Assembly (NCBI GenBank): GCA_934316545.1
Contig: CAKRDT010000021.1
Span: 1-37,783 of the forward strand
DNA from: an uncultured Agathobacter sp.
GTDB lineage: Bacteria > Bacillota > Clostridia > Lachnospirales > Lachnospiraceae
Direction: 5' to 3'
Length of the DNA: 37,783 bases
Shown: positions 22,273 to 36,404 of the stretch, piece by piece
Position numbering within the stretch: position 1 is the first letter of the stretch
Layout: each line of letters begins with the position of its first letter
The notes under the pieces: generated by a model
Told to the model about the DNA's origin: nothing
The model's database searches: none
What the model saw: only the letters and a program-made list of their open reading frames with translations
Made by a program: the position numbers and the translations under genes

Positions 22273-22342
22273 GAAAGAAGAATAAGAAGCAGGCAGAAGG
22301 GGTGTGCCGGTCATGCCCCTTTTTGCCGGAAAGGAAAACAAA

Positions 22343-23236
22343 ATGGATCAACAACAGAATATGGAACTGACAAAAGACCAGATTATACAGGAACTGATTG
22401 CCCTTTTAAACCAGAATCAGCAGAGGGAAGCGGCAAACAATGTGTTTGAAATGGCAGCCCTGATTGACGGTATGGAAAAGAGGCTGGAGTCCGTGACAGA
22501 GGAGCTTGTGACAGTCAAGGATCAGCTTTGTAAGATGGAAGAGCGAGAGGCGGAGAAAGGGCTGCAACAGTCACTTAAAAGGGCAGTAAATAAGCTGGAA
22601 CAGGATTGCAATGCCATGAAGGAAAAACTGTTTGAGGTCAAGGCAGAGATCAAGGCAAAGGCAGGGGAGATTGTAACAGCGGCAAAGCAGAAAGGAAAAG
22701 CTGCTCTAAATAAAGTGGCGGAGTTTCTTGGGGTTAAGAAGAAATTAGAAAATATCCGCCAGAACGTGCAGGAGTCCATTACAGATTTGGATAAGAGTAT
22801 TGAAAAGATTGACGCTTTCGGAACAGGCATGAGGGAAGCTGAACAGAAGATTGCCAACACGTTCCGTACATTTGCAGATAAACCGGAAAAGGAGTATGGG
22901 GAGAAGAAGTTCTCAAAGACAGAACTGTTAAAGAAACCTTTTCAGGCAAAGAGAAAGCTGCTGTCTGGTATCATAAACTTTGCGGATGCCGCCATAGAAA
23001 AGACGGAGCAGCTTGCTGCAGATGTGAAACAGTATCAGACAGATAAGGAAGAACGGGAGACGGCAGGTGTTAGCAATGTGGAGGCTGTAAATCCGGTTGA
23101 ACTTGCAGTAGTGACGGAGCCAGAGTTCCAGTATGGGGCAGAGATATTTGAAGCACATCAGCAGGAAACAACAAAAGCGATGACAACGGATAAAGTAACA
23201 AAGAATGTGCTTGTAAAAAACGGAAAAAGCCGATAG
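22343..23236 (+). CDS. DUF6674-like coiled-coil protein
   Basis: The ATG at 22343 follows AAGGAAA and starts MDQQQNMELTKDQIIQELIA. The 297-residue protein is mostly helical with heptad-like runs (residues about 45-175), lysine-rich, and lacks membrane segments or catalytic motifs. The N-terminal helical segment and layout match the DUF6674 family found next to SpoVG-like genes in these elements. It is the last backbone gene before the cargo and is followed by a strong terminator. Confidence 0.7.
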   Translation: MDQQQNMELTKDQIIQELIALLNQNQQREAANNVFEMAALIDGMEKRLESVTEELVTVKDQLCKMEEREAEKGLQQSLKRAVNKLEQDCNAMKEKLFEVKAEIKAKAGEIVTAAKQKGKAALNKVAEFLGVKKKLENIRQNVQESITDLDKSIEKIDAFGTGMREAEQKIANTFRTFADKPEKEYGEKKFSKTELLKKPFQAKRKLLSGIINFADAAIEKTEQLAADVKQYQTDKEERETAGVSNVEAVNPVELAVVTEPEFQYGAEIFEAHQQETTKAMTTDKVTKNVLVKNGKSR

Positions 23237-23243
23237 GAAAAAG

Positions 23244-23291
23244 TCCTCTTGAATTGAACTAAGGTTGTGATTCAGGGGGATTTTTTGTTTT
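23244..23291 (+). terminator. Intrinsic terminator closing the ICE backbone
   Basis: TCCTCTTGAAT (23244-23254) pairs with ATTCAGGGGGA (23270-23280), with two wobbles, followed by TTTTTTGTTTT. It isolates the RiPP operon from upstream transcription, so that operon depends on its own promoter. Confidence 0.85.
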
Positions 23292-23300
23292 GATGGTCCT

Positions 23301-23364
23301 TTTCTGCAAAAATGGGACACTTTCTGCAAAGCCACTTGTTTAAGATATTGAATGTGTCTACACT
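23301..23364 (+). promoter_or_regulatory. LytTR-type tandem site and promoter of the RiPP operon
   Basis: Two identical 9-mers TTTCTGCAA lie at 23301-23309 and 23321-23329, 20 bp apart. A weak -35 TTGTTT (23336-23341) and a -10 TACACT (23359-23364) follow with a 17-bp spacer. A weak -35 next to direct repeats is the layout of AgrA/LytTR-activated promoters. The same arrangement precedes the agr genes. Confidence 0.75.
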
Positions 23365-23382
23365 ACAAAGTAGGAGGTAAAA

Positions 23383-23463
23383 ATAAAATTAGGAAGATTA
23401 AAAAAGTTTTTAGTAGAGTTAAAAAATTTGATTGCTTCAAATAGGGTGATTAAAAATCCGTAA
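23383..23463 (+). CDS. Possible 26-residue amphipathic peptide with ATA start
   Basis: An AGGAGG site (23372-23377) is followed 5 nt later by ATA and 25 more codons: KLGRLKKFLVELKNLIASNR then VIKNP. The segment is a basic amphipathic helix, like small secreted peptides. The TSS-to-ribosome-site geometry equals that of agrB. There is no ATG, GTG or TTG at the right distance, so it is either a rare ATA start or a silenced gene. Confidence 0.3.
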   Translation: MKLGRLKKFLVELKNLIASNRVIKNP

Positions 23464-23532
23464 GGGTGTTTTTTCATTTTGTTGTATCAGCAATCATTGA
23501 AAAAAGCAAATATTTTAAAGGAGGCATATAAT

Positions 23533-24018
23533 ATGGCTATGGAAATTAATGAAATTCGTCCTGATTATCCTAGACAGTATCCAGTTGTAAACAAAACAGA
23601 AAAGAGCGAAAATGATACACCAGTCAATAAAATCCCGCAGGATGAGTATATAAGTAGTGAAAAGGCAGCAAACAAACCGAGCGGCTTGTATGGATTGGCA
23701 CAGGATGAAAACGGCAATCGTAAAATTGTTTATGATGATCCACATAAAAAGGAGCGTGCTACTTCTGATGGGGTAAAATCGGCAGATAGAGATGATAAGT
23801 CGGAAAAATGTACAACAAATACAGATTCTGTTGATAGAGAGATAGAGAAGCTGAAAGAGGAAAAAAAGCAAATACAACAGCAGATTCGTAGTGCTAATGT
23901 AGATGAAGAAAAGAAAAAAGAACTGGAGCGTAAGTTGGCACGAATTGAAAACGAGTTGTCTCAGAAAGATACTGATGCATACAGGCGCCAAAACGCAGTA
24001 ACAAATAATGCAGGTTAA
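23533..24018 (+). CDS. Coiled-coil hypothetical protein, first gene of the RiPP operon
   Basis: The ATG at 23533 follows AAAGGAGG by 7 nt. The 161-residue protein has a polar, disordered first half (NEIRPDYPRQYPVVNKTEKS...) with no signal peptide. The second half is a strong coiled coil (VDREIEKLKEEKKQIQQQIR ... KKKELERKLARIENELSQKD). The coiled part recalls FlxA-like proteins, but that is weak evidence. It lies between the LytTR-type promoter and the precursor gene, so it is probably co-expressed with the peptide. A role in maturation, immunity or cell-surface function is unknown. Confidence 0.65.
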   Translation: MAMEINEIRPDYPRQYPVVNKTEKSENDTPVNKIPQDEYISSEKAANKPSGLYGLAQDENGNRKIVYDDPHKKERATSDGVKSADRDDKSEKCTTNTDSVDREIEKLKEEKKQIQQQIRSANVDEEKKKELERKLARIENELSQKDTDAYRRQNAVTNNAG

Positions 24019-24109
24019 AATGGCTGAATGCTTATAAGTGGTCAATCTATACAATGAACGTTTGAGATTGGCGTTACTTATAAATATAGAAGGGAAGGAG
24101 GTATGCATC

Positions 24110-24247
24110 ATGAAAAAGCAGCTTAAGAAAAAGGTTACAGTCGCATCAAAGCAGCATGTAATGGCACACTGCTCATGCACATGTAGTTGCAGCTTGAACA
24201 ACAACTACAATGCATCTTGGGGAAAAGTAAATTATCATTATATTTAA
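24110..24247 (+). CDS. Cys-rich RiPP precursor peptide (CLI_3235-like)
   Basis: This 45-residue peptide begins at the ATG at 24110, 8 nt after AAGGAGG. A basic leader (KKQLKKKVTVASKQHVMA) precedes a compact core with alternating cysteines, HCSCTCSCS. The tail is rich in Asn and Tyr. Alternating Cys with spacing one, and the downstream set of radical SAM, TIGR04066-type and acyl-carrier-related genes, fit the CLI_3235 bacteriocin class. In that class the CcpM radical SAM enzyme is thought to modify the peptide, possibly at the cysteines. There is no double-glycine cleavage motif. The final product and target are unknown. Confidence 0.75.
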   Translation: MKKQLKKKVTVASKQHVMAHCSCTCSCSLNNNYNASWGKVNYHYI

Positions 24248-24301
24248 TAAGTGATGGCTTGTGAAAATATAGTGAACAATTTATTTTGTTGCCAAGTATG
24301 T

Positions 24302-24327
24302 GGGGGCTGATCATAAGGTCGGCTCCC
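24302..24327 (+). promoter_or_regulatory. Hairpin between precursor and maturation genes
   Basis: GGGGGCTGATC (24302-24312) pairs with GGTCGGCTCCC (24317-24327) through several G-U pairs, closing on ATAA. No long U-run follows, so it is likely a partial terminator or mRNA-stabilising stem that leaves more precursor than enzyme transcript. Confidence 0.5.
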
Positions 24328-24381
24328 TATTTACTAATATTTAATGTCATTGGAATTTTGTTAATTGAGGTGACGTGAATA

Positions 24382-25815
24382 ATGGATGAAATAAAGGTAG
24401 CATTTCTTGATGACGGATTAAACATGAGTTTGCTTTCTGAAATGGAAAAAGTGGATTTATATGCAGTAGAAGATGGCGAGGTAATATTATGCTCAAATAT
24501 AAATAGAGGCCATGAAATAACTCATGGAACAATATGTGTAAAAATTTTTAAGCAATATGTAAAAATAAAAGCCAACATTATTAGTATAGAAATACTTGAT
24601 TATAATAAGAGATGTAGCTCAGATAAGTTAGTAGTTGCATTGAACTGGATTGAGCAAATGGGTATCAAAATAGTGAATTTAAGCTTGGGTACATCTTTTT
24701 TTGGGGATGAAATGTGTTTAAAACGATGTGTTAATAAACTAGCTGATAGTGGTCACATAATTGTGGCGGCACAAAATAATAATTCGTTCATTACATATCC
24801 AGCAACTTTTACAAATGTAATAGGAGTTAGTGCTAGCCCTGAAAATCAAGATATTTTGCTAAATACAGAATATGTTTTTTCTGGAATTGATTTGTTGGGA
24901 AAATCGGAACATGAAATTGATATGCAGGGAAATAAAATTGTAACACAACACGCAAGTAGTTTTGCTACACCATACATAACAGCGATGGTTGCTAATTTAT
25001 ATAAGCCTGGGGACGATGTGCTAGATATGAAACACAAATTGTGTTCAACATTTTGCGATGGTTTTCTTGAATTAAAAAAGTATGACTGGTGTAATAAGGC
25101 TATTATTTTGCAATCACGAAATTGTAATTTTGAGAAAGACTACGTATGCTTTGAAGTGATTAAAAGATATTTTTTCGATGAAATCGAATTTAAAATGGAA
25201 GAAATTAAAATATTATATAAACAGAATATAATAAAAACTTTAATAATAATTGGAAATGGAGAGGACATTATTCATTTGTTCAAAGGCGAAAAAGTTAGGT
25301 TCCCTTACCTATTAATGATAAATACTAACAACGAAATTTTATTATCTAAAATGAACAATTTAGAGAGAACTCTTATCATAAAGGATCGGAATTTAAAAAA
25401 AATATTTTCAAATGAAAAAATAAAGAAAATAGATATACCTATAGTTGTTATATATTACAATGAGCAGAAAGAAAATGAAGCGATATGTAGAATATGTAAG
25501 GCTAAAGAAGATTTTGCTGATAACGGATATAATTGTAAAACATTTATAGATAAAAGTGTGGGGATTTTATATGGTTTTGAATATTGGACTGGTGAATTTG
25601 ATATTAGAGAATATATTGAGTTTTATATGATAGACTTGGTAGTTATACTGATAAATATGAATAAACAAAATGGATATATAGATGGTGATTTAAATTTGAG
25701 GTTTGGGCAGTCGGAAGTTTTTAGTGAAATAAATATGCTTTTCGATGTAGAAGACAAGGATATATATCAGTATACCGTAGAACAATTACAAGAGGAGAAC
25801 AATAAGTATGAATAA
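24382..25815 (+). CDS. S8 family serine protease of the RiPP cluster
   Basis: The first 200 residues form a minimal subtilase: catalytic Asp10 in AFLDDGLN, His48 in EITHGT, oxyanion Asn in AAQNNN (about 132) and Ser193 in QHASSFATP, where the usual GTS is AS-S. No signal peptide or prodomain is visible, so it should act in the cytosol. The C-terminal 270 residues are a separate AT-rich-coded domain with no family I recognise. The exporter in this cluster lacks a C39 peptidase domain, so this protease is a good candidate to remove the leader. It overlaps the next gene by 8 nt. An AGGTGACG site lies 10-15 nt before the ATG. Confidence 0.75.
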   Translation: MDEIKVAFLDDGLNMSLLSEMEKVDLYAVEDGEVILCSNINRGHEITHGTICVKIFKQYVKIKANIISIEILDYNKRCSSDKLVVALNWIEQMGIKIVNLSLGTSFFGDEMCLKRCVNKLADSGHIIVAAQNNNSFITYPATFTNVIGVSASPENQDILLNTEYVFSGIDLLGKSEHEIDMQGNKIVTQHASSFATPYITAMVANLYKPGDDVLDMKHKLCSTFCDGFLELKKYDWCNKAIILQSRNCNFEKDYVCFEVIKRYFFDEIEFKMEEIKILYKQNIIKTLIIIGNGEDIIHLFKGEKVRFPYLLMINTNNEILLSKMNNLERTLIIKDRNLKKIFSNEKIKKIDIPIVVIYYNEQKENEAICRICKAKEDFADNGYNCKTFIDKSVGILYGFEYWTGEFDIREYIEFYMIDLVVILINMNKQNGYIDGDLNLRFGQSEVFSEINMLFDVEDKDIYQYTVEQLQEENNKYE

Positions 25816-27265
25816 ACAAGTTAACCCTATCTATAAACTTTTTCAAACGAGTAATAATGATTTTTATATGTTTGATACGTATGCAAACAAAATAAAAAAG
25901 GTAAGTAGAAATTGCTATGAATATTTACGCAAAATAGAAGAAGGAAAGGCAGATTTTTTTCAAGAAGCAGCCACTATCGAGGATGAAGAATTTAAAAAAT
26001 TTTATGAAGAAAGTTTAGAACAAGGATTATTTGCAAAATATTGCATTGAAAAACTTCAGCATCCAATGACAGAACTTTTAGATGATATTTTGGATGTAAA
26101 TATAGAGAGTATAAATTTGCAAGTAACACAAAACTGCAATCTAAGGTGCGAATATTGTCCATATACTGGCAATTTTTATAACAACAGAAGACATACAAAT
26201 AAATCTATGAGCTTTGAATTGGTAAAAAGAGGTATTGACTTCCTTTATAATCATTCAATGAATTGTGAAGTTGTAAATGTTGCTTTTTATGGCGGAGAAC
26301 CTTTATTGGAATTTGAATTAATCAAAAAAAGTATAGAATATGCAAAAGAAATATTTGAAACAAAAAAAATAATATTTTCTTTGACAACAAATGCAGTATT
26401 ACTTACTGATGCAATGATGAGATTTTTTTGTGAGAATGATGTTCTGTTAACGGTTAGTTTAGACGGTCCTCAAAATATTCATGATAAATCTAGAATTTTC
26501 GCTAATGGAAAGGGTAGCTTTGAAATAGTATATAGAAATTTATGCTATTTTAAAGAAAACTATTTGGAGTATTTTAACCATAATGTTATGTTTAATGCTG
26601 TAAGCGCACAAGATCAAGGAGTAATAGAAATAGATAAATTTTTTACGGAGGATCCCCTCTTTGAAAAGTGTGAGGTAGCTACAACATTCTATAGTACAAA
26701 CTATGTAAGTAATGAACCACAATATAATAATGAAAATGATAACTTTGTACAGCATATGGAGTTTGAAAAATATAAATGCTTTTTATACATGATGAAAAGG
26801 ATAAAAAATTTCCCAACAAGGATGCAGATAAATAGTTTTGAAGAAATTAAAAAGACAGAAAAGCATCTAAAGGGATTTATGGGTATACCTAAAATATTTC
26901 ATCCTGCGGGTCCTTGTGTTCCAGGTAGAAAGAAATTGTTTATGAATGTGGATGGCAATTTTTATCCATGTGAGCGAATTGATGAGACTTCTCCTTGTTC
27001 AGTGATTGGGAATATTGATGAAGGATTATCATTAGAAAAATGCGAAAAACTTTTAAATATTGGGAAAATAACTGAAGAAAAGTGTAAGGGGTGCTGGGCG
27101 ATAGCTCATTGCAAATTTTGTTTTATTCAAGCAGATAGTGGTGGGGAACTTTGTCCAAAATGCAGATTGGAAAAATGTAGAAATTTACAAGATTCTATAA
27201 TAGATACATTTAGGGATATTTGCGTGTTAGAAAAGAATGGTTATCATTTTGAGGAGGACGTTTAA
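25808..27265 (+). CDS. ccpM: Radical SAM/SPASM peptide maturase, CcpM-like
   Basis: This 485-residue enzyme has the radical SAM CxxxCxxC cluster motif at Cys110, Cys114 and Cys117 (TQNCNLRCEYCPY). A GGEP motif follows (FYGGEPLLEF) for SAM binding. The C-terminal SPASM region has many cysteines: GPCVPGRKKLFMNVDGNFYPC, then EKCKGCWAIAHCKFCF and CPKCRLEKC. These would hold two auxiliary 4Fe-4S clusters. Residues 1-100 form a recognition-like domain that probably binds the leader peptide. Enzymes of this type install thioether or other carbon links on RiPPs; the reaction here is unproven. The start overlaps the protease gene, and an AGAGGAG site is upstream. Confidence 0.88.
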   Translation: MNKQVNPIYKLFQTSNNDFYMFDTYANKIKKVSRNCYEYLRKIEEGKADFFQEAATIEDEEFKKFYEESLEQGLFAKYCIEKLQHPMTELLDDILDVNIESINLQVTQNCNLRCEYCPYTGNFYNNRRHTNKSMSFELVKRGIDFLYNHSMNCEVVNVAFYGGEPLLEFELIKKSIEYAKEIFETKKIIFSLTTNAVLLTDAMMRFFCENDVLLTVSLDGPQNIHDKSRIFANGKGSFEIVYRNLCYFKENYLEYFNHNVMFNAVSAQDQGVIEIDKFFTEDPLFEKCEVATTFYSTNYVSNEPQYNNENDNFVQHMEFEKYKCFLYMMKRIKNFPTRMQINSFEEIKKTEKHLKGFMGIPKIFHPAGPCVPGRKKLFMNVDGNFYPCERIDETSPCSVIGNIDEGLSLEKCEKLLNIGKITEEKCKGCWAIAHCKFCFIQADSGGELCPKCRLEKCRNLQDSIIDTFRDICVLEKNGYHFEEDV

Positions 27266-28338
27266 TGAAAAATAATAGCGAAATAGCGATTGTTTATCCT
27301 ATGGGTAAAGAATTTGTGGAAATAATAAAATATAGAAACATGTTAGAAAATTATGAAAAATTAATTCCGGTGTCGTTTGTTGGACAAAGTCTAGAAAATA
27401 GAGATGTTGGAGAATTAGTAAAAGGAAGTCATATTGGCATAGAAATAACATCGGACTTTGAAAAGAAGATACTTGATGCAACAGAGATTATTTTTACAGA
27501 GTTTTCAGACATTGTATATAAGAAAATAATGTACTCAATAGAGAAGAAGAAAAATATTGTTTGTTTATGTGAGTTAGAACATGAAGTGGAAGAAAAAATT
27601 ATACAAAAATGCAAAGAAAACGGTCTTACATATAAGAATTATTGTAATCTAAGTGAAACTTATCCTGAATTAAAAGAAAATAGATTAAAACAAGTTTGTG
27701 CCCCGATATTATTGATTTGTGGATTATCAGAATATACAAATAAGTTTGAATTGCAGCTTAAAATAAGAAATGAGTTTATTAGGCGAGGATATTCTGTTTC
27801 TCAAGTTGGGAGCAGAAAGTACAGTAGTTTATTTGGAATGCATAATTTCCCGCAGTTTATGTTTGATGATATTCAGGATAGTGAAAAAATATACCTTTTC
27901 AATTCCTATGTAAAACAAATTGAAGATAAAGAAAAGCCGGATATAATTATCATTGGTGTACCAGGTGGAGTAATGCCATATGATGCAGATCATCCAAATG
28001 GTTTTGGCATTGCAAATTATTTGGTTTCTAATGCCTTAAATGTGGATTACGCACTGCTATCTTTGGCTTATAATGAATATGATGAGTCTTTTTGGAATTT
28101 TGTTATAAACTATATGAAATTTAGATACGAATATCCAGTTCAAAGTTTTCATTTGGCAAATATTTTTCATGATGTGTATGGAGATGAAAGAAATGATCGG
28201 GAGAGATTAATATATGTAAATCAAAAAAAGGTAGAAGAAAAGATTAAAACCTTTGCAAGAAAAGATATATTTAATTTAAACAATGAGGAAGCTTTTGCGA
28301 ATGAAATTAATGAGATAATAGATTATTTGTCTAATTAG
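27265..28338 (+). CDS. Peptide maturation system protein (TIGR04066-like)
   Basis: This 357-residue protein begins at the ATG that shares one base with the previous stop (TAATG). Its N-terminal half (IAIVYPMGKEFVEIIKYRNM) looks like a Rossmann-type domain. The second half has ILLICGLSEYTNKFELQLKI and the run DIIIIGVPGGVMPYDADHPN, suggesting a nucleotide-binding fold. No classical Walker A is present. The length, order and neighbours match TIGR04066, a family found only with CLI_3235-type precursors and CcpM. Biochemical role unknown. Confidence 0.75.
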   Translation: MKNNSEIAIVYPMGKEFVEIIKYRNMLENYEKLIPVSFVGQSLENRDVGELVKGSHIGIEITSDFEKKILDATEIIFTEFSDIVYKKIMYSIEKKKNIVCLCELEHEVEEKIIQKCKENGLTYKNYCNLSETYPELKENRLKQVCAPILLICGLSEYTNKFELQLKIRNEFIRRGYSVSQVGSRKYSSLFGMHNFPQFMFDDIQDSEKIYLFNSYVKQIEDKEKPDIIIIGVPGGVMPYDADHPNGFGIANYLVSNALNVDYALLSLAYNEYDESFWNFVINYMKFRYEYPVQSFHLANIFHDVYGDERNDRERLIYVNQKKVEEKIKTFARKDIFNLNNEEAFANEINEIIDYLSN

Positions 28339-28352
28339 AGGAGGTTTATCAG

Positions 28353-28601
28353 ATGGTTAATATAAAAAAGGATGTGTTAAATAAGTTAGATAAAAATTTT
28401 TCTATTCAATTAACAAAAGAATTATATGATACTAATTTTTTTAGCCCTAAAGTAGGTTTACTCGCAAGACATTTTATTGATTTAATATATGAAATTGAAG
28501 ATGAATTTAGTATTAAGTTCGATGAACAATCTTTGATAAATCCAGAGTTCTGCACACTAAATGGGTTTGTGAAAAAAATAGAAGAAAAGATAAACTGTTA
28601 A
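28353..28601 (+). CDS. Acyl-carrier-related protein of the RiPP cluster
   Basis: This 82-residue acidic helical protein follows a strong GAGGAGG site 14 nt after the previous gene. The helix II stretch (ARHFIDLIYEIEDEFSIKFD) aligns with acyl carrier proteins. The DSL phosphopantetheine site is absent: the expected Ser position is occupied by Ala/Arg. It matches the description of the peptide maturation acyl-carrier-related family (TIGR04069). Without the Ser it cannot carry phosphopantetheine, so it may act as a scaffold or recognition subunit for the maturase. Confidence 0.75.
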   Translation: MVNIKKDVLNKLDKNFSIQLTKELYDTNFFSPKVGLLARHFIDLIYEIEDEFSIKFDEQSLINPEFCTLNGFVKKIEEKINC

Positions 28602-28649
28602 GCGGAAAGTATTGTGAATATATTGTTAGGATAGTAGATGGAGGCAAAT

Positions 28650-30329
28650 ATGAATAATAGTGAAGCAGTTAAAAAATTGCTTGGACTTTTAAAAGGATAT
28701 AGTAAAACTATAGCAGTTATTATTGGTTGCCTCTTAATTTCTACTGGATTGAGTTTATGTATTCCCTTGCTTAACAGGAAAATCATGGATGAGGGCTTTA
28801 TTGGTGCAAATAAAGGTTTATTGATTGAATTGACACTGATACTAATGGCAATATATGGGATAAACTCAATTATTGATATTATTAAGGAAAAGAAAAGGAT
28901 AGAAATTTCTGCTAAGTTACAATATTTTCTTTCAGAGCAGTCTTTTGCTCATTTAATGAAAATGAAAATGAGCTATTTTAATAATACAAATTATGCTGAA
29001 TTATTAAATAACATCAATACGGATATTAGTAAAATGGTTATGATTTCAGACGAAAGTATTTTTTTTGTTGTTACACAGATGTTTAATATGATAGGCGGAT
29101 TGATAGGTCTTTTCATAATAGACTATAGAATGTCCATACTTGTAATCATATTTATTCCAATTAAATGTATTGTTATGAAGTATTTTGCAAAAAAGCAAAA
29201 GTCTATTATGGAAGATTTTATAAGACGTAATCAAGAGTATGCAAAATGGTTTGGTGATACCGTTGGGGGAATTAAAGAGGTTAAGTTATTTAATATTTTT
29301 GATAAAAAGCACAATGAGTTTTTAATTAGGCAGAAAGGAATTATAGATAAGCAGAAGCAAATGAATATGCTTAGTCAGTGGAATATCATTACTGATTCAA
29401 TAATGGTTCAGTTATTATCTACGGTATTATATATTGTAGGTGGAAGTTTGGTGTTTGACTTACAATTATCTGTTGGGAGTGTTTTTGCATTTATTACATA
29501 TAGTTCTTATGTAACAGGACCAATATCAGCAATTTTAAATATCGGATATTTGCTTTCGGGTATAATACCATCTACAAAAAGATATTATGAATTTATGGAT
29601 TTACAAGAGGAAACAGAAAGTGGAAAACATATAGAACCAATTTTTGGAGAATTGAGATTACAAAATGTCTCTTTTTCCTATGAGGTAGGCAAGCCTGTAC
29701 TTAGAGATATCAATCTAACATTTCCAAAGGGAAGCAAAACGGCATTGATGGGCAGGAATGGTTCTGGAAAAACAACAATTATTAATCTGCTTACAAGAGT
29801 GTATAATCCGGTAAGTGGTTATATATTGTTGAATGAGACGGATATTTCAGAAATATCATTACATAAGTATAGAAACATGGTATCTGTCGTAAGCCAACAG
29901 ATTTATCTTTTTAATGATACAATCAGAAATAATATATGTCTCTATCAGAATGTTAGCGATGAAGTAATACGTGCTGCTTGCAATGAGAGTGGTTTGGAAG
30001 ATTTTTTAAAAGAAGTGTCTTTAGATTATGTGGTAGGACAAAATGGTGCAATGCTCTCAGGCGGACAGAAACAAAAGATTGCCCTTGTTAGGGCGTTAGT
30101 GCATGACAAGCCTATTATAATCTTTGACGAGGTTACTTCTAATACGGATTCTTATTCGGAATATCAGATTAATAACTTATTACATACAAGGCTAAAAAAT
30201 AAGACAGTAATTATTATTACACATAAAAGAGAGATACTTAGTGAGGTGGATCGAATTATCATGTTAAGAGATGGTATCGTAGTTAAAAATGAAAACTATG
30301 ATGAGTTAATAGGTAATAGTGATGAGTGA
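28650..30329 (+). CDS. ABC exporter (fused membrane and ATPase domains)
   Basis: The ATG at 28650 is chosen because GGAGG (28640-28644) lies 5 nt upstream; an ATG at 28638 overlaps that site. The 559-residue half-transporter has six membrane helices (residues about 15-310). Its nucleotide-binding domain has Walker A GRNGSGKTT, the signature LSGGQKQK, Walker B PIIIFDEVTS and a switch His in ITHKRE. There is no C39 peptidase domain at the N-terminus. It is the likely exporter of the modified peptide, working as a homodimer, and may also give self-protection. It ends the operon. Confidence 0.88.
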   Translation: MNNSEAVKKLLGLLKGYSKTIAVIIGCLLISTGLSLCIPLLNRKIMDEGFIGANKGLLIELTLILMAIYGINSIIDIIKEKKRIEISAKLQYFLSEQSFAHLMKMKMSYFNNTNYAELLNNINTDISKMVMISDESIFFVVTQMFNMIGGLIGLFIIDYRMSILVIIFIPIKCIVMKYFAKKQKSIMEDFIRRNQEYAKWFGDTVGGIKEVKLFNIFDKKHNEFLIRQKGIIDKQKQMNMLSQWNIITDSIMVQLLSTVLYIVGGSLVFDLQLSVGSVFAFITYSSYVTGPISAILNIGYLLSGIIPSTKRYYEFMDLQEETESGKHIEPIFGELRLQNVSFSYEVGKPVLRDINLTFPKGSKTALMGRNGSGKTTIINLLTRVYNPVSGYILLNETDISEISLHKYRNMVSVVSQQIYLFNDTIRNNICLYQNVSDEVIRAACNESGLEDFLKEVSLDYVVGQNGAMLSGGQKQKIALVRALVHDKPIIIFDEVTSNTDSYSEYQINNLLHTRLKNKTVIIITHKREILSEVDRIIMLRDGIVVKNENYDELIGNSDE

Positions 30330-30365
30330 TGAAATATCTTGGATAATTAATATGTTATTTTTCGC

Positions 30366-30400
30366 AAACAATATTTATGTGTAAAAATATTTGTTTTTTT
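30366..30400 (+). terminator. AT-rich terminator after the ABC exporter
   Basis: AAACAATATTT pairs with the later AATATTTGTTT with one bulge, followed by TTTTT. It would end the RiPP operon. Confidence 0.6.
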
Positions 30401-30630
30401 ACTTCATAAATTATTTATCTAAAAACAGTAATTTGCAAATTCGAGAAAAATAGAATGAAAAACATTATTAATAAAGCAGACGGTTATGTAGCAGTATATG
30501 CCGAATGGTATGATGAAATTGTGTAGGATATGAGCGAACTATGCAGTCTACAACTCTTATTTTTATCTAGATGGGGTACTAGATTTTTCAGCAATGTTTA
30601 ATCTTAACACATTTAGTTGTTCAATATTAA

Positions 30631-30664
30631 TTAAAGGGAACAGATTATAATCTGTTCCCTTTAA
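30631..30664. repeat. Perfect 34-bp palindrome
   Basis: TTAAAGGGAACAGATTA is followed directly by its exact reverse complement. There is no long U-run on either side. It may be a bidirectional terminator or a protein-binding or recombination site. Confidence 0.7.
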
Positions 30665-30787
30665 TAGTTGGTTGTAAATTCCCAGTAAATTATAGTATTG
30701 CTGACCGATTTCTGCAATAAAAATTACATAAAGTAGACTAAAACCAGTCCCTTTTCGATAGCTCTATTGAATACAATACTTTAAAAA

Positions 30788-30803
30788 GAACCGAAACGGG
30801 TTC
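30788..30803. promoter_or_regulatory. Candidate operator of the XRE regulator
   Basis: GAACC-N6-GGTTC (30788-30803) ends 17 bp before the XRE start codon. Its right part, AAACGGGTTC, recurs at 31954-31963 in front of the divergent RpoA-CTD-like gene, which suggests a shared binding site. Confidence 0.5.
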
Positions 30804-30820
30804 AGAAGTGTGGTGATGAT

Positions 30821-31054
30821 ATGGAGCAGAAAATAAAGCAGGATGATATATTTATCGGGCAGAACATCAGGCGTATCAGAAAAGAAAAAGGTATGCGGCA
30901 GACTGAAATGGTAGCATTGATGCAGTTAGAGAATGTCCCATTGACAAGGGAGGCGTTAGTGAAAATAGAAAGAGGAATACAGCACATACAGGCATCACAG
31001 CTTAGAGCAATCAGAAATGTATTGGGGACAACGTATGATGAATTGCTGAAATAA
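30821..31054 (+). CDS. XRE-family helix-turn-helix regulator
   Basis: This 77-residue protein is essentially one Cro/C1-type DNA-binding domain: IGQNIRRIRKEKGMRQTEMV, then LTREALVKIERGIQHIQASQ and the closing LGTTYDELLK. Such small regulators control ICE or cargo promoters. The GAACC/GGTTC dyad just before its start suggests autoregulation. It is convergent with the RpoA-CTD-like gene that follows on the other strand. Confidence 0.85.
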   Translation: MEQKIKQDDIFIGQNIRRIRKEKGMRQTEMVALMQLENVPLTREALVKIERGIQHIQASQLRAIRNVLGTTYDELLK

Positions 31055-31103
31055 AAAAGACAGATTGGTGTAATCTGCCATTTTACTATCATATTTTACA
31101 TAT

Positions 31104-31862
31104 CTATCCGAATGATAACAATTCTTTTATTGCTGCTGTAAATGAATTTGAAGAAGAAACGATTTCTTTAAGCGTACATTCATTACAGTCCGGTATTTGT
31201 GAAAGCATACTGATATTATGCTTTTTCCATAAGTAAGCAGCATTTTTCCCCGGAAGAATCTCAAAAATGAATTTATCCTGCCAATCGTTCAATACAAGCC
31301 CATTTTCTTTCAGAATAAAATAGGTCTGCATGGTAAGGATGTAATCTTTCTGGCATATAAGGTATAAGTCATTCGCCGTCATATGTTTAAAGTCATCTAT
31401 GCATGATATGTTGTTGCGGAACAGCAGGGGGTATATTTTAGAGGGAAACTGATATTTACTAAAATACTCTTTGATAGACAGCATAGATCGTATTTCAATA
31501 TTGTATTCCTGACAGATTTGTTCCAATTCTAAAATGGTTTTTTCTCCTAAGTTCCGAAAATGCAGAATATCTTCTTTGGAATAGGAGGAAAGCTGCGAAA
31601 GGTACATAACACCGTTTCGTATCAGGGCATTCTGCAATCGCTTCGACATGGGGACATCATAAATTGATATTTCATCACTTGGCGGCAGCAGATAGCCTAA
31701 AGCGTTCAATTCATCAATCAGGGGTTCAATATTATGATTTTTTGGAAATTTATTTATAAGAGTAATATAGTTTTGTCCTGCAAGTTCCGAAACCATTGTC
31801 AAACCTATGCTTTTTAAGGCAGATTTAGAGTCGGCAGAAATGTTTAAGTCTTGAATTTTCAT
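31104..31862 (-). CDS. RNA polymerase alpha C-terminal-domain-like protein
   Basis: The start is the ATG at 31862 (reverse strand), after AAGGAG; the longer open frame back to 32228 crosses its own promoter region and the agr promoter, and has an unlikely composition. The 252-residue product has an alpha-CTD/helix-hairpin-helix segment: VPMSKRLQNALIRNGVMYLS then LHFRNLGEKTILELEQI. Other parts (residues 1-60, 140-252) look like further degenerate repeats of that fold. Alpha-CTD binds UP elements and activators. A stand-alone version without the alpha N-terminal domain cannot enter core polymerase normally and may act as a transcription factor. It is divergent from the agr operon. Confidence 0.75.
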   Translation of the reverse strand: MKIQDLNISADSKSALKSIGLTMVSELAGQNYITLINKFPKNHNIEPLIDELNALGYLLPPSDEISIYDVPMSKRLQNALIRNGVMYLSQLSSYSKEDILHFRNLGEKTILELEQICQEYNIEIRSMLSIKEYFSKYQFPSKIYPLLFRNNISCIDDFKHMTANDLYLICQKDYILTMQTYFILKENGLVLNDWQDKFIFEILPGKNAAYLWKKHNISMLSQIPDCNECTLKEIVSSSNSFTAAIKELLSFG

Positions 31863-31911
31863 GTCTATATCATACTCCTTTATTCTTAGAGGTTGAAATG
31901 GAAACAAACCT

Positions 31912-31963
31912 AGTATATCACTTTTTTTGAAAAAATAAAACAAGAATGGACTAAAACGGGTTC
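31912..31963 (-). promoter_or_regulatory. Promoter region of the RpoA-CTD-like gene with shared operator half
   Basis: On the reverse strand a TATACT -10 box (31912-31917) has only a weak -35 (TTTTAT, 17 bp upstream). The AAACGGGTTC sequence (31954-31963) lies a little further upstream, the usual place for an activator site. The same 10-mer is in the XRE operator. Confidence 0.4.
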
Positions 31964-32005
31964 TAATTTGACAATCTTGATTGTTCCATTTTGTGTTTGT
32001 GTCAA

Positions 32006-32068
32006 TTTCTGCATAATATGGTCGATTTCTGCAATTTAGTTGACTAATGCGCTGAAGAAAAATAAAAT
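32006..32068 (+). promoter_or_regulatory. LytTR-type tandem site and promoter of the agr operon
   Basis: TTTCTGCAT (32006-32014) and TTTCTGCAA (32026-32034) are 20 bp apart. -35 TTGACT (32040-32045) and -10 TAAAAT (32063-32068) have a 17-bp spacer. It would give basal plus activated expression of the response regulator and kinase: positive autoregulation. Confidence 0.75.
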
Positions 32069-32230
32069 AATAAGGGGATTTATGAATTTTTTGTATATCA
32101 TCTTTCCTTACTTTGAATGTGGGAAAAGGGTTAAGGAATTTAGTAAGACGTGTCGAAATACAACACAGTGGAGTGTAAAATATCAGGGACAAATTGCTAT
32201 CAAATAGCAGGAAAGGAGGAGACAACACAG

Positions 32231-32956
32231 ATGCTCAAAATTGCAATATGTGATGATGAAAGTCTTTTTACAGAAGAACTAAGAGAATTGCTCTCCGGCT
32301 ATATGATGGAAAAAGGTCTTGTTTTTGAAATAGATACATATAGTTCCGGGGAGGCACTGATAGAATTAGGAATTGAGGTAGTGCGGTATAATATTGTGTT
32401 TTTAGATATCAATATGGATGAAGTCGATGGTATCAAGACGGCTGAGATGATCAGAAAAGCAAGCCGGGAAGTATTTATCGTATTTGTGACCGCATATGTG
32501 GATTATTCGCTGGAAGGATACCGATTAGATGTTGTAAGGTATTTGTTAAAGGGTAATGCAAATTTTCAGAGCAAAGTTAATGAATGTATGGATGCCATTA
32601 TTGATAAGATGAATTATTCCGTAGCGAAAAGGGAATTCGACTTTAAGGAGGGCGGAAAAGAAATATCGCTGGAAAGATTATTGTATATTGAGAGCAAGTT
32701 GCATTTACTTGAGTTTCATGTTATGGAGGACACAGAAAAAGTTTATACCATGTATGAGACGTTAAATGTGTTGGACGATATGCTTTCAGAAAATGGTTTT
32801 ATCAGGACACACCAGAGTTATCTTGTAAATTCAAAACATATCAAGAATGTTGTACGTTGTAAAGTGATATTGACAAATAGGGTTGAGTTACCTATACCGA
32901 AAGCAAGATATACAGAAGTTAAGAAAAAGTTTATAGCGTTCCGAGGAGAAGTGTAG
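32231..32956 (+). CDS. AgrA-like LytTR response regulator
   Basis: The ATG at 32231 follows AAAGGAGG. The 241-residue protein has an N-terminal receiver domain: acidic pocket Asp8/Asp9, phosphoacceptor Asp59 in VFLDINMDEVDG, and the conserved Thr and Lys in FVTAY and LLKGN. The C-terminal LytTR DNA-binding domain (about residues 135-238) has ERLLYIESKLHLLEFHV, FIRTHQSYLVNSKHI and LPIPKARYTEVKKKF. LytTR proteins bind tandem 9-bp direct repeats, as found in four promoters of this window. It is followed without a gap by the kinase gene, its obvious partner. Confidence 0.92.
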   Translation: MLKIAICDDESLFTEELRELLSGYMMEKGLVFEIDTYSSGEALIELGIEVVRYNIVFLDINMDEVDGIKTAEMIRKASREVFIVFVTAYVDYSLEGYRLDVVRYLLKGNANFQSKVNECMDAIIDKMNYSVAKREFDFKEGGKEISLERLLYIESKLHLLEFHVMEDTEKVYTMYETLNVLDDMLSENGFIRTHQSYLVNSKHIKNVVRCKVILTNRVELPIPKARYTEVKKKFIAFRGEV

Positions 32957-34255
32957 ATGTTTGAGTTAATGCAGAGCGTATTGTTGATATTTATTGAAAT
33001 AATGTGTTGCAAGATTTTTTATGAAACATTTGGGAAAGTGCGGTATAAAGGATGGATTAATGTAATACAGTTTATATTATTACTTGGTAGCGTATGTTTA
33101 CTTGCATTTGGCTTTTCAGAAAATTTTGTAATAAGGCAGATTGCTAATATTTTAACTCTTTCAGCATTTATGCTTTGGCATGTTAAAATTAGCTTGAAGA
33201 AATCTTTTGCTTTAGCTGTGTTATTTGATGCATTCCTGCTGGCAATGGACTATTTGGTGTATTTGATTATTGACTGGTTAGCTTTGGACAGTAATTTATC
33301 AGAGCAACTGTATGGAAGTGGAGCTGTTCTGGCATATCTTCTGGTAAAAGTAATATTGTTTTTCTTTATTCTTGTCATAAGAAAACAGTTTGGAAAAAAG
33401 TCAATAGAAATGATGTTAGATACAGAATGGTTGAGATTACTTTTTTTCCCTGTCTTTACTATAGCCGTTATTTATGCAATGTTATCTGTTTTTGAACATG
33501 TACAGACAGTAGAGCAGGCAAATTTGCTTGCTGTTATTGCATTTGGAATGGTGGGAATGAATATTGTTGTATTCTATCTAATTAACGATATTGTAGAAAG
33601 GGAAATGAAATTGCATGAAAACAAGGTTTTTCAAATTCAGGCGAAAAATCAGTTGGAAATGTATAAGTCTATCTCTGAAAATTTTGATAATCAAAAAAGA
33701 AAGACTCATGAATACAAAAATCAGATTTCATGTATCGAATCCTTACTGGAAAAAAAGCAATATTCCAAGTTAGAGGAATATGTAAAAAAGATCTACGGTT
33801 CTATGAATAATGAACCGGATGCTATTAACACCAATAATGTAATTGTAAATGCCATACTTAATACAAAGTATCATGAAGCAGAAGAAAAAGGGATTGTTTT
33901 CGTATTCCGGGTAAATGATCTTTCAGAGCTGAAAATGAAAGATGAGGATGTGGTAACTATCCTTTCTAATCTTTTGAATAATGCGATTGAAGCATGTGAA
34001 CTGTGTGAAAATAATAAGGTAATTAAGTTCAAATTTATTCAAGAAGATGATATGATAATCATTGCCGTTAAAAATACGTTTAATTATGATGTTATATATG
34101 AGAATGGAGAGATAAAATCTACAAAAACATCAAGTGTGGATGAACATGGTGTAGGAATTAAAAACATAATAAAAACTATTGAGAAGTATGCTGGTTCATA
34201 TGTAATTGAAGATAAGAACAAAGAATTTTTCTTTTCTATTATTATTCCTGCATGA
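32957..34255 (+). CDS. AgrC-like GHKL sensor histidine kinase
   Basis: The ATG at 32957 follows the regulator stop directly. The 432-residue protein has six to seven N-terminal membrane helices (residues about 5-215), the peptide-sensing domain of AgrC-type kinases. A dimerisation coiled coil follows, with the phosphorylated His at about residue 251 in QKRKTHEYKNQ. The GHKL ATP-binding domain has N box SNLLNNAIEAC, then the G box GVGIKNI. It would be activated by the cyclic peptide from AgrD and phosphorylate the adjacent LytTR regulator. Confidence 0.92.
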   Translation: MFELMQSVLLIFIEIMCCKIFYETFGKVRYKGWINVIQFILLLGSVCLLAFGFSENFVIRQIANILTLSAFMLWHVKISLKKSFALAVLFDAFLLAMDYLVYLIIDWLALDSNLSEQLYGSGAVLAYLLVKVILFFFILVIRKQFGKKSIEMMLDTEWLRLLFFPVFTIAVIYAMLSVFEHVQTVEQANLLAVIAFGMVGMNIVVFYLINDIVEREMKLHENKVFQIQAKNQLEMYKSISENFDNQKRKTHEYKNQISCIESLLEKKQYSKLEEYVKKIYGSMNNEPDAINTNNVIVNAILNTKYHEAEEKGIVFVFRVNDLSELKMKDEDVVTILSNLLNNAIEACELCENNKVIKFKFIQEDDMIIIAVKNTFNYDVIYENGEIKSTKTSSVDEHGVGIKNIIKTIEKYAGSYVIEDKNKEFFFSIIIPA

Positions 34256-34298
34256 ATTTAATGTCAAAATGGGTGTCTCTAAAGCTAGCTTGTGCCGT

Positions 34299-34361
34299 TT
34301 CCTGCAAAAAATATCCGTTTTCTGCAAAGTGCCTTGATTTTTTCTATATTCCCTTCATACT
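34299..34361 (+). promoter_or_regulatory. LytTR-type tandem site and promoter of agrBD
   Basis: TTCCTGCAA (34299-34307) and TTTCTGCAA (34319-34327) are 20 bp apart, each preceded by CCG. -35 TTGATT (34334-34339) starts 12 bp after the second CTGCAA, as in the RiPP promoter, and CATACT (34356-34361) is the -10. The predicted transcript starts just ahead of the agrB ribosome site, giving a very short leader. Confidence 0.72.
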
Positions 34362-34383
34362 GAATAACTAAGGAGGCATATTT

Positions 34384-34968
34384 ATGATAGAGAAGATGGC
34401 GTTAAGGATTGTCAATCAAATGGAGGAGCAGAAGATAATAAGCAAATCGAATTGTGAATATTACGAATATGCATTAGTAGGTATGGTTGAACAAGCTATA
34501 ACTGTTGGAACTATGCTACTTTTAGGATTATTATTTAGGCAATTCCTGCATACCGTCTGTTTTATGGTTTTCTTTCTTTCATTAAGAAAACGGACAGGGG
34601 GATTCCATGCGAATAAGTTTTGGCAGTGTTATCTAGGGACGGTCATATTTTATATTGCGATTATGCAGATTGTACCCATATTTTGCAGGAAACCGACTAT
34701 TATGTATGGGTTACTATTTCTTGCAATGCTTTTAATTTGCATAATGGGGACAATAAACCACCCTAATATGGATATGAGCAAAAGTGAATTACGGGAGTCT
34801 AAGAAAGCAGCAAGGCTGCAGATTTTAATGGAGGTAATGATAATTGCTGCCTTAATTTATTTGAAAGCTGATTTTATGTATATTGGCTATATGTCAGCGG
34901 CTATCATATTATGTGCGTTTCTGATGTGCTTAGCAAGAATAATAAAACAGGAGGTAAGGATACAATGA
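34384..34968 (+). CDS. agrB: AgrB-like autoinducer-processing membrane protease
   Basis: This 194-residue integral membrane protein has about five to six hydrophobic helices. The AgrB catalytic pair is present: His75 in RKRTGGFHANKF and Cys82, seven residues later, the same spacing as in Staphylococcus AgrB (His77/Cys84). AgrB cuts the C-terminal tail of AgrD and forms the thiolactone ring. AAGGAGG precedes the ATG by 7 nt. It overlaps agrD by 4 nt (ATGA), so enzyme and substrate are translationally coupled. Its own LytTR-type promoter allows positive feedback. Confidence 0.93.
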   Translation: MIEKMALRIVNQMEEQKIISKSNCEYYEYALVGMVEQAITVGTMLLLGLLFRQFLHTVCFMVFFLSLRKRTGGFHANKFWQCYLGTVIFYIAIMQIVPIFCRKPTIMYGLLFLAMLLICIMGTINHPNMDMSKSELRESKKAARLQILMEVMIIAALIYLKADFMYIGYMSAAIILCAFLMCLARIIKQEVRIQ

Positions 34969-35114
34969 AAAAAAACGAAAAAGCAGGAAACAAGGTATTG
35001 AAGGTAGTAGAGAGAATCGTCCGCAATGAAGCTGAAAAAGTTATGGACGGATATCCTCCTATTTGCATGGGAATTGGTTATCAGCCGAAGAGACCGAAGC
35101 GGAAAGAGGATTAA
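34965..35114 (+). CDS. agrD: AgrD-like cyclic thiolactone autoinducer precursor
   Basis: This 49-residue peptide follows AGGAGG and overlaps agrB. The N-terminal helix (EKAGNKVLKVVERIVRNEAE) is amphipathic and would bind the membrane. The core is around GYPPICMGIG and the charged tail is YQPKRPKRKED. The tail pattern xxPKxP matches the DEPKNP tail of staphylococcal AgrD, where cleavage precedes it. By analogy the ring is Cys34 to Gly38 (CMGIG), five residues, with an exocyclic N-terminus such as YPPI. The N-terminal cut is not predictable. It should be secreted and sensed by the adjacent AgrC-like kinase. Confidence 0.88.
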   Translation: MKKNEKAGNKVLKVVERIVRNEAEKVMDGYPPICMGIGYQPKRPKRKED

Positions 35115-35174: not shown

Positions 35175-35227
35175 GCATAAAAAAGCCTTTCAGAACGTTA
35201 TATTGTATCCGAAAGGCTTTTTTATGC
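35175..35227 (+). terminator. Bidirectional terminator after agrD
   Basis: GCATAAAAAAGCCTTTC (35175-35191) is the exact reverse complement of 35211-35227, a 17-bp stem with A- and T-runs on its two sides. It ends the agr transcript. Confidence 0.88.
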
Positions 35228-35230: not shown

Positions 35231-35293
35231 TTTCTGCAAAAATGGTCCACTTTCTGCAAGGGTGATTGACCTTTAACTTTGTTTTGCTATTAT
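35231..35293 (+). promoter_or_regulatory. LytTR-type tandem site and promoter of the secreted-protein genes
   Basis: TTTCTGCAA occurs at 35231-35239 and 35251-35259, 20 bp apart. The inner sequence AAATGGTCCAC resembles that of the RiPP promoter. -35 TTGACC (35266-35271) starts 12 bp after the second CTGCAA, and an extended -10 TGCTATTAT ends at 35293. Confidence 0.75.
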
Positions 35294-35490: not shown

Positions 35491-36404
35491 ATGAAAAAAA
35501 GCTAAAAAATTTTGTAGGGTTAGTGGCAGTAATTGCACTATGTTTTGGTCTGGTAAATATTAATGCAATAGATGCACAAGCGGCTACATCTATTACAGGT
35601 AATAATACAAGAACAACAGCTTACAACTATGGCAGTTGGTCATCGATTAATTCTAACTATGCAACTATTATTTTAGAGAGTGGACAAATAGAGTCTTGGC
35701 TGGAATTTACATTAAGTCCAGGAGAGCACATTTATTTAAGGGCATCATATGATGAAGAATATGCAGGCGAGTGGTTTGAAATACAGAATGGAGTGGGGAT
35801 TACACAAGGCGTACCTCAAATGACACCGGAAGATGTTTATAATGCGGATAGTGTTACGCCGGATATATATCTGGACTGTGATAATGACTCAACTTCCACG
35901 AGAAATTATTATTTGGTTTTGCATAGAGGTAGCGTGGACATAAACAGAAGTATCTATTTTTCGTTGTCAGCTTATAACAGAATAAAGACATCATCAGTAG
36001 ATGTTCCGATTTCAGGAACGGCATCTAATCCAGGGAATAGCAGTATTAGCTTGTCGGGCGTTGATTCATCTATCATATCAGTGAATTTAACCAATGATAC
36101 GAAAATTCCTGATAACGCTATCGTTACAAGTATTTCATCTTCTGGGACCCAGTCCCCTAGCCAAGGAAATGTGCATCATATGATTATGCCTGCAAGTAAC
36201 GGTATTTGGTATACTTCAACGGTTTCAAGTGCAAGTAGTGGTCACTATAATATTGATATTGATGATGGAATACCTGTGAAGCAAAGATGGAGTTTCAAAT
36301 ATAATGCTCTTGCTACAGCTAAGTCAACAATGAGAAATGTTAAGCTGAAGATAGGGTTTCAGTATGATTTGCACGATACTGATTATGAGACTTATATAAG
36401 GTAG
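35491..36404 (+). pseudogene. Secreted beta-rich protein with frameshift in its signal peptide
   Basis: AGGAAGGTGG is followed by ATG (35491) and seven A residues, then GCTAA, so the ATG frame stops after 4 codons. With eight A residues it would read MKKKLKNFVGLVAVIALCFG and continue to INAIDAQAA, a textbook signal peptide, and then 270 more residues. Without the extra base the only in-frame start is GTG at 35523, which lacks the positive N-terminus. The mature part is rich in Ser, Thr, Asn and Tyr, with repeated beta-like segments and no lipobox, sortase or enzyme motif. The two domains (about 30-160 and 175-295) are unassigned. The frameshift may be real, a slippage switch, or a sequencing error. 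Confidence 0.65.

Follow-up and report, generated by a model that had tools for sequence, protein, structure and literature searches.

Does the agr-like quorum-sensing circuit of a decayed integrative and conjugative element (ICE) control the peptide operon that lies beside it? The question is raised by a stretch of 37,783 nucleotides from an uncultured Agathobacter sp. (contig CAKRDT010000021.1, positions 1 to 37,783), hereafter the window, which carries a cluster for a ribosomally synthesized and post-translationally modified peptide (RiPP) and an AgrA/AgrC/AgrB/AgrD circuit. Judged from the DNA sequence, the RiPP operon is most likely a direct target of the adjacent agr/LytTR circuit and belongs to a group of cargo operons that islands exchange. 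Comparison strongly supports a control that the RiPP operon has in common with the agr genes, because the operator found at both co-occurs with the regulator family and CcpM genes recur beside it.

Tandem predicted operators before the RiPP and agr genes

The RiPP cluster (24110-30329) and the agr circuit (32231-35114) are both present in full-length frames and lie 1.9 kb apart, in agreement with the first-pass annotation, which had placed them 2 kb from each other on one element. The same annotation had described a tandem 9-mer pair at promoters of both. We found four such operators, TTTCTGCAA-N11-TTTCTGCAA, two of them with one mismatch, located before the RiPP operon (23301), the agrA-like gene (32006), agrB (34299), and an exported-protein gene (35231); the fourth lies outside the region that the annotation had covered.

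23238..23286, +, terminator-like hairpin just 5' of the RiPP operator (-22.5 kcal/mol, z score -5.8, T-rich end)
23301..23329, +, operator pair of the RiPP operon, TTTCTGCAA-N11-TTTCTGCAA (matrix score 45.8 bits, window sites excluded from the matrix)
23336..23364, +, predicted promoter TTGTTT-N17-TACACT, 3' of the operator with roughly the consensus spacing
32006..32034, +, agrA-like operator pair, then TTGACT-N17-TAAAAT (pattern and matrix)
34299..34327, +, agrB operator pair, one mismatch (pattern and matrix)
35175..35227, +, terminator-like hairpin before the fourth operator (-26.7 kcal/mol, z -9.0)
35231..35259, +, operator pair of the exported-protein gene, then TTGACC-N16-TATTAT (pattern and matrix)

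The window was scanned with the pattern TTTCTGCA-N12-TTTCTGCA, which at up to three mismatches gave seven matches against 0.85 expected, a number reached in none of 100 shuffles. Four of the seven had at most one mismatch, and these were the operators at 23301, 32006, 34299, and 35231. Additionally, a weight matrix was built from 82 training sites of the regulator loci L024-L050, with the window and the nearest genome (G001) excluded. Scores above 8 bits were restricted to the four operators of the window (42.7-56.6 bits), and the best of 100 simulated windows reached 6.4. The regions before 34299 and 32006 showed unremarkable hairpin folding (z 1.4 and 0.0).

The first-pass annotation had named the occurrence of the pairs at unrelated promoters genome-wide as a finding that would speak against its proposal, and the G001 genome did not show it. 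There, 40 pair matches were found at up to two mismatches. With scoring limited to the 28 listed bases, six reached 30.3-45.4 bits and were operator-like, five of them on contig C44 and the sixth on C154 (3.8 kb); the training sites had a median of 41.3 bits and a lowest score of 22.2. The other 34 scored at most 11.4 bits; we treated them as chance matches and rejected a genome-wide spread of the pair.

The promoter consensus was derived from 89 non-redundant of 100 sites in the window and 28 regulator islands. Positions +35 to +37 tend to TTG (T in 87/89, T in 64/89, and G in 55/89 sites) and positions +57 to +62 to TATAAT, with the hexamers 16 bp apart and the second repeat ending 6 bp before the -35 box. 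The predicted operator spans about -69 to -41 relative to the predicted start sites, a placement that fits an activator. Sigma-70-like sites as such numbered 79 in 23200-35600, with 68.7 expected.

The genes behind these operators are listed below; G349 is the genome with the nearest RiPP relative found.

23533..24018, +, first gene of the RiPP operon, 161 amino acids (aa), charged; ribosome-binding site (RBS) and ATG
24032..24083, +, possible RNA hairpin before the precursor (z -2.6)
24110..24247, +, RiPP precursor, 45 aa, core CSCTCSCS; counterpart in G349
24302..24327, +, attenuator-like hairpin separating the precursor from the maturation genes; conserved in G349
24382..25815, +, S8 subtilase-like protease (PF00082; catalytic motifs present)
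25808..27265, +, CcpM-like radical SAM/SPASM maturase (TIGR04068; CxxxCxxC and SPASM-type Cys)
27265..28338, +, TIGR04066 peptide maturation system protein (311 bits, cut-off 200)
28353..28601, +, acyl-carrier-related protein (TIGR04069, 40.9 bits, below the cut-off of 70)
28638..30329, +, ABC exporter (model match and motifs)
30630..30665, +, terminator-like hairpin 3' of the RiPP operon; its T tail is weak (terminator scan)
32231..32956, +, AgrA-like response regulator with LytTR domain (PF00072, PF04397; RBS and ATG)
32957..34255, +, AgrC-like histidine kinase (GHKL domain PF14501; HEYKN motif)
34384..34968, +, AgrB (PF04647, E 2.3e-34; His-x6-Cys)
34965..35114, +, AgrD precursor, ...PPICMGIG-YQPKRP... 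(TIGR04223, 27.4 bits, cut-off 19)

All 12 active-site motif patterns checked in CcpM, the S8 protease, the ABC exporter, AgrB, the kinase, and the regulator were found, and the maturation genes are in full-length frames, in line with the first-pass annotation, to which they had looked intact. Its naming of a complete CLI_3235/CcpM-type cluster held in part: the genes are there, whereas the maturase (best-matching model TIGR04068, 472.7 bits, cut-off 500) and the acyl-carrier-related protein fall below their cut-offs and the CLI_3235 precursor model TIGR04065 has no match to the window precursor. The set therefore appears to be a divergent, CcpM-like branch and not a filed CcpM/CLI_3235 member. 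Among the 24 CcpM matches in family genomes, 17 surpass the TIGR04068 cut-off; the L045 precursor scores 31 on TIGR04065 (cut-off 26), and the acyl-carrier-related copy of L048 is below the TIGR04069 cut-off too (54.2 bits). In an alignment of three, the usual phosphopantetheine attachment serine is seemingly absent from this protein in the window and in G349. Seven clusters with 80-100% identity to the precursor came out of a protein search, and two match it without a difference along its length. The S8 protease is a probable leader peptidase, and the 161-aa first gene gave no Pfam match at E 0.001.

The circuit has the parts expected of an agr system, namely the AgrB His and Cys residues, AgrD, a GHKL kinase with a LytTR regulator carrying the FLD motif, and, as predicted from the sequence, paired repeats at its own promoters. 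The AgrD alignment of the window and five relatives keeps PP-x-C-x-G-[IF]-x-[HY]-QPKRP, and by analogy with Listeria the AgrD ring is probably C-M-G-I-G.

Operator, regulator, and CcpM genes across genomes

One genome scan provided 28 regulator loci (L023-L050), 60-100% identical, and three more distant matches (L051-L053). At least one operator with up to one mismatch was present in 24 of the 28 islands, and none in the three distant loci. The association was then measured in a family set of 397 genomes, in which the regulator (threshold E 1e-70) was found in 13 genomes and the exact pair in 19. The exact operator occurred in 10 of the 13 genomes with the regulator against 9 of the 384 without (Fisher p 1e-12), and the reversed control pattern in 1 of 397. 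Exact matches were used because a 29-base version of the pattern with one mismatch had some match in at least 106 of the 397 genomes. The regulator was not found in IMG/VR, nor in PLSDB plasmids at E 1e-30.

CcpM genes, searched at E 1e-80, gave 24 matches in 17 of the 397 genomes. They occurred in 5 of the 13 regulator genomes versus 12 of the 384 others (p 8e-5), and nine of the 24 matches, one of them partial, lay within 15 kb of agrB on the same contig, with 0.6 expected. A partial CcpM match (G296 C6 53777-57800) stands 3 kb from a different agrB. Within the fetched stretches, CcpM genes of 35-39% identity were carried by 11 of the 28 islands (L024, L029, L031, L035, L038, L040, L041, L044, L045, L046, and L047), a count from which a 26% match in L025 was left out.

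The order operator, precursor, CcpM recurs in G034, two G304 clusters, two G296 clusters, G172, and L024. Start to start, operator and precursor are 126 bp apart in G034 and 153 bp apart in one of the G304 clusters, while the interval is 1.0-1.4 kb in a further G304 cluster, the two G296 clusters, G172, and L024; one gene stands between operator and precursor in L024 and the G296 clusters, as in the window. Operators with up to two mismatches were found in the 1.5-kb CcpM flanks of four of nine loci in regulator genomes, compared with none of 15 in family genomes without the regulator and neither of two in G002 and G054, genomes outside the regulator search.

The G349 genome provides a further comparison. 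Its identities to the window are 72% for CcpM, 68% for TIGR04066, 65% for the acyl-carrier-related protein, and 74% for the ABC exporter; its precursor core is CSCPCSCS, its RiPP genes lie directly behind agrD, and the S8 protease had no match in the 31 kb of G349 examined. For the four genes, the Nei-Gojobori proportions between window and G349 were 0.14-0.21 at nonsynonymous and 0.60-0.70 at synonymous sites, pointing to long purifying selection on the RiPP genes. The region before the precursor is also similar in G349, with a weaker hairpin (z -1.7) and a partly different fold. Conservation of the attenuator in G349, along with a weaker pre-precursor hairpin seen in both, suggests a single transcript with surplus precursor mRNA. 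The spacing of RiPP promoter and RBS in the window (23330-23400) resembles that of the G349 agrB promoter, hinting that the window RiPP might have been captured from an agrBD-RiPP operon.

Cargo operons and the decayed conjugative element

Beyond the first-pass annotation, the main addition of this work is a wider pattern in which the RiPP appears as one of several exchangeable loads of an operator-bearing island. In G001, the same slot, which runs from the first operator to the agr module, is filled by different cargo, an exported protein of 201-207 aa and a protein of 222 aa, and the agr module itself is near-identical to that of the window (30702-37708, 99.8% identity). Homology between window and G001 stops at 23329, where the second repeat has its final base, and is found again from 30702.

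30702..30717, +, right boundary of the cargo compared with G001; a single copy of TTTCTGCAA at 30709

The left edge fell within 23328-23331 against eight islands (L026, G001, L036, L031, L024, L045, L041, and L047), namely those sharing at least 388 bp of upstream backbone with the window. The cargo behind the edge differs from that of the window in all eight, and some islands share cargo types among themselves. Pieces of the terminator-then-operator unit recur two to four times within L041, L047, L028, L036, L024, and L046. Similar hairpins precede other cargo operons: the one in the L041 leader is strong (z -5.8), and the L024 and L036 leaders, with z 0.7 and -1.4 on stretches cut too short, showed hairpins on longer stretches. 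By operator class, terminators stood before 38 of 67 'other' operators, 0 of 11 agrB operators, and 1 of 5 response-regulator operators, counts that are illustrative only, as the sorting was crude and unshuffled and placed several regulator-promoter sites (window 32006 included) under 'other'.

Breakpoints lay within 30 bp of an operator in 80 of 674 cases (11.9%, versus 1.7% at random positions); compared with intergenic positions, 67 of 353 were near an operator and 33.6 were expected. Because the enrichment is smaller against intergenic positions, the claim of cargo exchange rests on the eight aligned cases. We hold it as a tentative but serious possibility that the terminator and operator form a modular cassette head, that Lachnospiraceae islands swap cargo by recombination at such heads, and that the window RiPP was captured in this way. 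Captured operons, whether RiPP clusters, signal-peptide proteins, or DUF6033-like genes, would then fall at once under the quorum circuit, giving a quorum-controlled cargo array with integron-like logic and no dedicated integrase.

The first genes headed by operators encode signal-peptide proteins, DUF6033 proteins, a B12-binding radical SAM protein, an acyl-carrier-related protein, a CcpM-type precursor, and an alpha-CTD-like protein. DUF6033 matched 3 of the 33 first genes scanned, and a signal peptide was called in 25 of 87 by a home-made rule that counted agr genes too. Operator-headed proteins lacking an evident signal peptide occur at L029:5321-6058, L041:14238-14915, and in L031 behind 20222, with the starts MEINGVNSYINSY, MAIAGVNDYTNTY, and MAMDISNAYSSY. 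The B12-binding radical SAM protein (L024:818-2416) has ApyD as its best NCBIfam match, with 118 bits against a cut-off of 750, and is perhaps another RiPP class in the regulon.

The element that carries this cargo is, as the first-pass annotation had proposed, a broken ICE. From 13895 onwards it is a shortened copy of the ICE on contig C44 of G001, and the comparison confirmed it as a deleted remnant.

Left third, chromosome-like: class II tRNA synthetase (D/K/N type), GatCAB, ClpX-like, and SbcCD-like genes (Pfam matches; names beyond these are what we take the genes to be)
13895..23236, +, ICE remnant (blast blocks collinear with G001 C44 and tblastn against it; Pfam matches of the G001 proteins; P-loop of TraG within the window)

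Window blocks 13895-14922, 14921-17067, 17066-19738, 19737-20270, 20264-21603, 21585-23329, and 30702-37708 follow in C44 order at 93-99.8% identity, and C44 stretches of about 22.9, 3.6, 1.3, and 10.3 kb are absent between blocks. The missing G001 sequence encodes the relaxase (PF03432), which has no match in the window, and the conserved domain of the coupling protein (PF02534). In the window, the VirD4-like coupling protein retains only C-terminal residues 571-734 of 734 compared with G001, and the VirB4-like protein retains residues 451-811 of 811, with the P-loop domain and without its first half. The window thus lacks the complete relaxase and type IV secretion genes of an ICE. The G001 stretches also encode a 2565-aa protein, 937 residues of which were tested and gave no Pfam match. 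The annotation had further read the contrast between intact cargo and broken transfer genes as selection holding the cargo rather than transfer. The data would be compatible with this, but the purifying selection seen against G349 is silent on the time since ICE decay, and the deletion junctions are known from one assembly only.

A PBECR4 family gene (18175-19251) is full-length in the ICE remnant, at 98.9% identity to G001, with its adjoining genes cut; in the left third, a GNAT acetyltransferase domain and a complete GatC domain share a single open frame (2709-3623), an unusual fusion. The agr module is accompanied by the following genes.

30821..31054, +, 77-aa helix-turn-helix (HTH) protein, in many islands a member of the agr module
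31104..31862, -, stand-alone RNA polymerase alpha-CTD-like protein (PF03118, two stretches), adjoining the agr genes and divergent from agrA
35493..36404, +, exported-protein gene, start out of frame versus G001
36414..37451, +, DUF4885 protein downstream of the exported-protein gene, perhaps one unit with it

The alpha-CTD-like protein was matched in 16 of the 28 regulator loci and might help in recruiting polymerase to operator-bearing promoters; some loci hold a second copy with its own minus-strand operator (L024 4737). The frame at the very start of the exported-protein gene is off compared with the intact G001 copy, by decay, slippage, or sequencing error. On the minus strand, L026 (15470-17960) and L028 (16882-19374) each harbor an additional agr-like set that is divergent, its AgrB, kinase, and regulator having 22-27% identity. 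The kinase match is split in L038 (Eubacterium plexicaudatum ASF492, 7788-10966), with a frame change near residue 81, and in L035 (Lachnospiraceae bacterium A4, 5889-8659), with pieces about 1.5 kb apart; the regulator gene of L038 is separated from its operator by 2.2 kb. Both isolates carry island and CcpM gene, and their circuit may be disrupted. L041 (Petralouisia muris NM01_1-7b) has full-length circuit frames, operators, and a CcpM gene.

Proposed mechanism, rival readings, and known systems

We propose that AgrB would process AgrD into a cyclic peptide, probably around Cys-Met-Gly-Ile-Gly, which the AgrC-like kinase would sense, phosphorylating the LytTR response regulator. The phosphorylated regulator would bind the TTTCTGCAA pairs and activate agrA and agrB, a positive feedback, together with the RiPP operon through the pair at 23301 and the exported-protein gene through that at 35231. 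The CcpM-like enzyme would modify the 45-aa Cys-rich precursor, the S8 protease would cut it, and the ABC transporter would export it, the product being probably a bacteriocin. Such a peptide would be made only at high cell density, as the first-pass annotation had suggested and as we infer. The circuit on the decayed ICE would serve as a portable controller, with terminator- and operator-headed cargo operons exchanged between islands.

Several observations weigh against this reading. No operator was found at up to one mismatch in four of the 28 islands (L027, L042, L043, and L049), nor near the middle G304 CcpM cluster. The matrix training sites had been picked with the window-derived pattern; therefore, the matrix tests the spacer and flanks and not the repeats themselves. 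Some CcpM islands are the same genomes as G296, G034, and G304, and the counts are not independent; with the CcpM tree poorly resolved, no number of independent RiPP-agr linkages is claimed. The regulator is absent from 12 of the 17 CcpM genomes, so the RiPP class does not depend on it. G349 has no site above 10 bits, and a degenerate pair before agrB was read by eye. That pair lies behind a hairpin and has -35 and -10 boxes; because pair and boxes precede agrB, the G349 RiPP is probably part of the agrBD transcript. The window has 809 bp from operator start to precursor, the 161-aa gene lying between them, and its leader contains a weak hairpin with a T run (23455-23474, -6.2 kcal/mol, z -1.5), for which reason read-through from the operator promoter into the precursor is likely and not certain.

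These last features are what an own-promoter arrangement would build on, in which the operator at 23301 drives the 161-aa gene only and the precursor and maturation genes have a quorum-independent promoter. Such an arrangement has the precursor 0.8 kb from the operator and the weak T-run hairpin in its favor, and the operon, like AT-rich DNA in general, offers sigma-70-like sites. We nevertheless regard it as unlikely, considering that the operator stands directly before the precursor in G034 and one G304 cluster and that the similar G349 region behind agrD has no evident promoter. The terminator scan returned nothing on the + strand between 23364 and the precursor at 24110, a weak point against it since the scan also missed the large-loop hairpin at 23238; a stricter script, likewise without a hit in 23365-24110, missed the hairpins at 23238, 30630, and 35175 and says little. 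We rate slightly lower the reading that the pairs are sites of the alpha-CTD-like or HTH protein, or repressor sites, the RiPP then being turned off by quorum. Genes for both proteins often accompany the regulator gene; however, neither was detected in L033 and L039 (about 20 kb each), which have operators. The 9-mers are two helical turns apart, as is typical of LytTR sites, which counts against another protein, and the position upstream of the -35 box fits activation rather than repression. AgrA itself binds paired direct repeats near promoters, the pattern seen here, and its repression of bsaA is an instance of repression elsewhere (PMC4227749).

That RiPP and agr genes are mere passengers of one mobile element, with no regulatory link, we consider highly improbable: both do lie on the ICE, and G001 has the agr module without the RiPP, but the shared operator goes far beyond chance and tracks the regulator across the 397 genomes, and the linkage occurs in different gene orders. 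As to the product, a signal or developmental peptide instead of a bacteriocin has a lesser though real chance. SCIFF ranthipeptides, which are radical-SAM RiPPs, have been reported in quorum sensing; here, however, AgrD is a separate signal, and SacP23, from a similar gene set of the CcpM kind, was reported active against Staphylococcus aureus, showing that such a set can yield an antibacterial peptide (PMC10731318).

If the direct-target reading is right, this quorum-sensing family has an operator code that can be read across Lachnospiraceae, making regulon members findable by sequence alone and predicting when a RiPP class of these bacteria is made. It also suggests a route by which mobile islands could place incoming cargo under density control while no new promoter has to evolve, and may explain the silence of such RiPPs in low-density screens. 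A literature search, with most subscription journals outside it, found no description of an agr-controlled CcpM RiPP or of a TTTCTGCAA-pair operator.

Among known systems, the agr loci of Listeria and of Staphylococcus (PMC4227749) resemble the window in their AgrB/D/C/A parts and in a LytTR regulator with paired direct repeats upstream of promoters. The window differs from both in the repeat TTTCTGCAA with its 20-bp period, in the order A-C-B-D with a separate agrB operator, in the linked alpha-CTD-like and HTH proteins, and in cargo on a mobile island. The SacP23 cluster of Paenibacillus polymyxa, of the CLI_3235/CcpM type, has the Cys-rich precursor, TIGR04068, TIGR04066, TIGR04069, subtilase, and ABC transporter of the window; its gene order differs, according to the table passage, and the word 'quorum' is absent from the main text of the paper (PMC10731318). 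The window precursor, unlike that type, has no match to the CLI_3235 model.

Horizontally transferred cyclic-lactone-autoinducer clusters, including one autoinducer-RRE hybrid, have been described in gut bacteria (PMC12806405), and for a Lachnospiraceae genome with autoinducers and a thiopeptide, protection by a quorum-induced bacteriocin was proposed (PMC11352710). In the streptococcal Rgg/SHP RaS-RiPPs, a radical-SAM RiPP is under peptide quorum sensing, as proposed here (PMC8092268, PMC13361665). Streptococci use Rgg and a short hydrophobic peptide, whereas the window has a membrane kinase, a LytTR regulator, a presumed cyclic peptide, and, across its islands, several other cargoes. In Clostridium acetobutylicum, a RiPP-type gene, encoding a LanM-like protein, is located downstream of agr and controlled by it, as proposed here; that protein, however, lacks the conserved catalytic residues, acts in granulose formation, and is without the other lanthipeptide machinery (PMC10301443).

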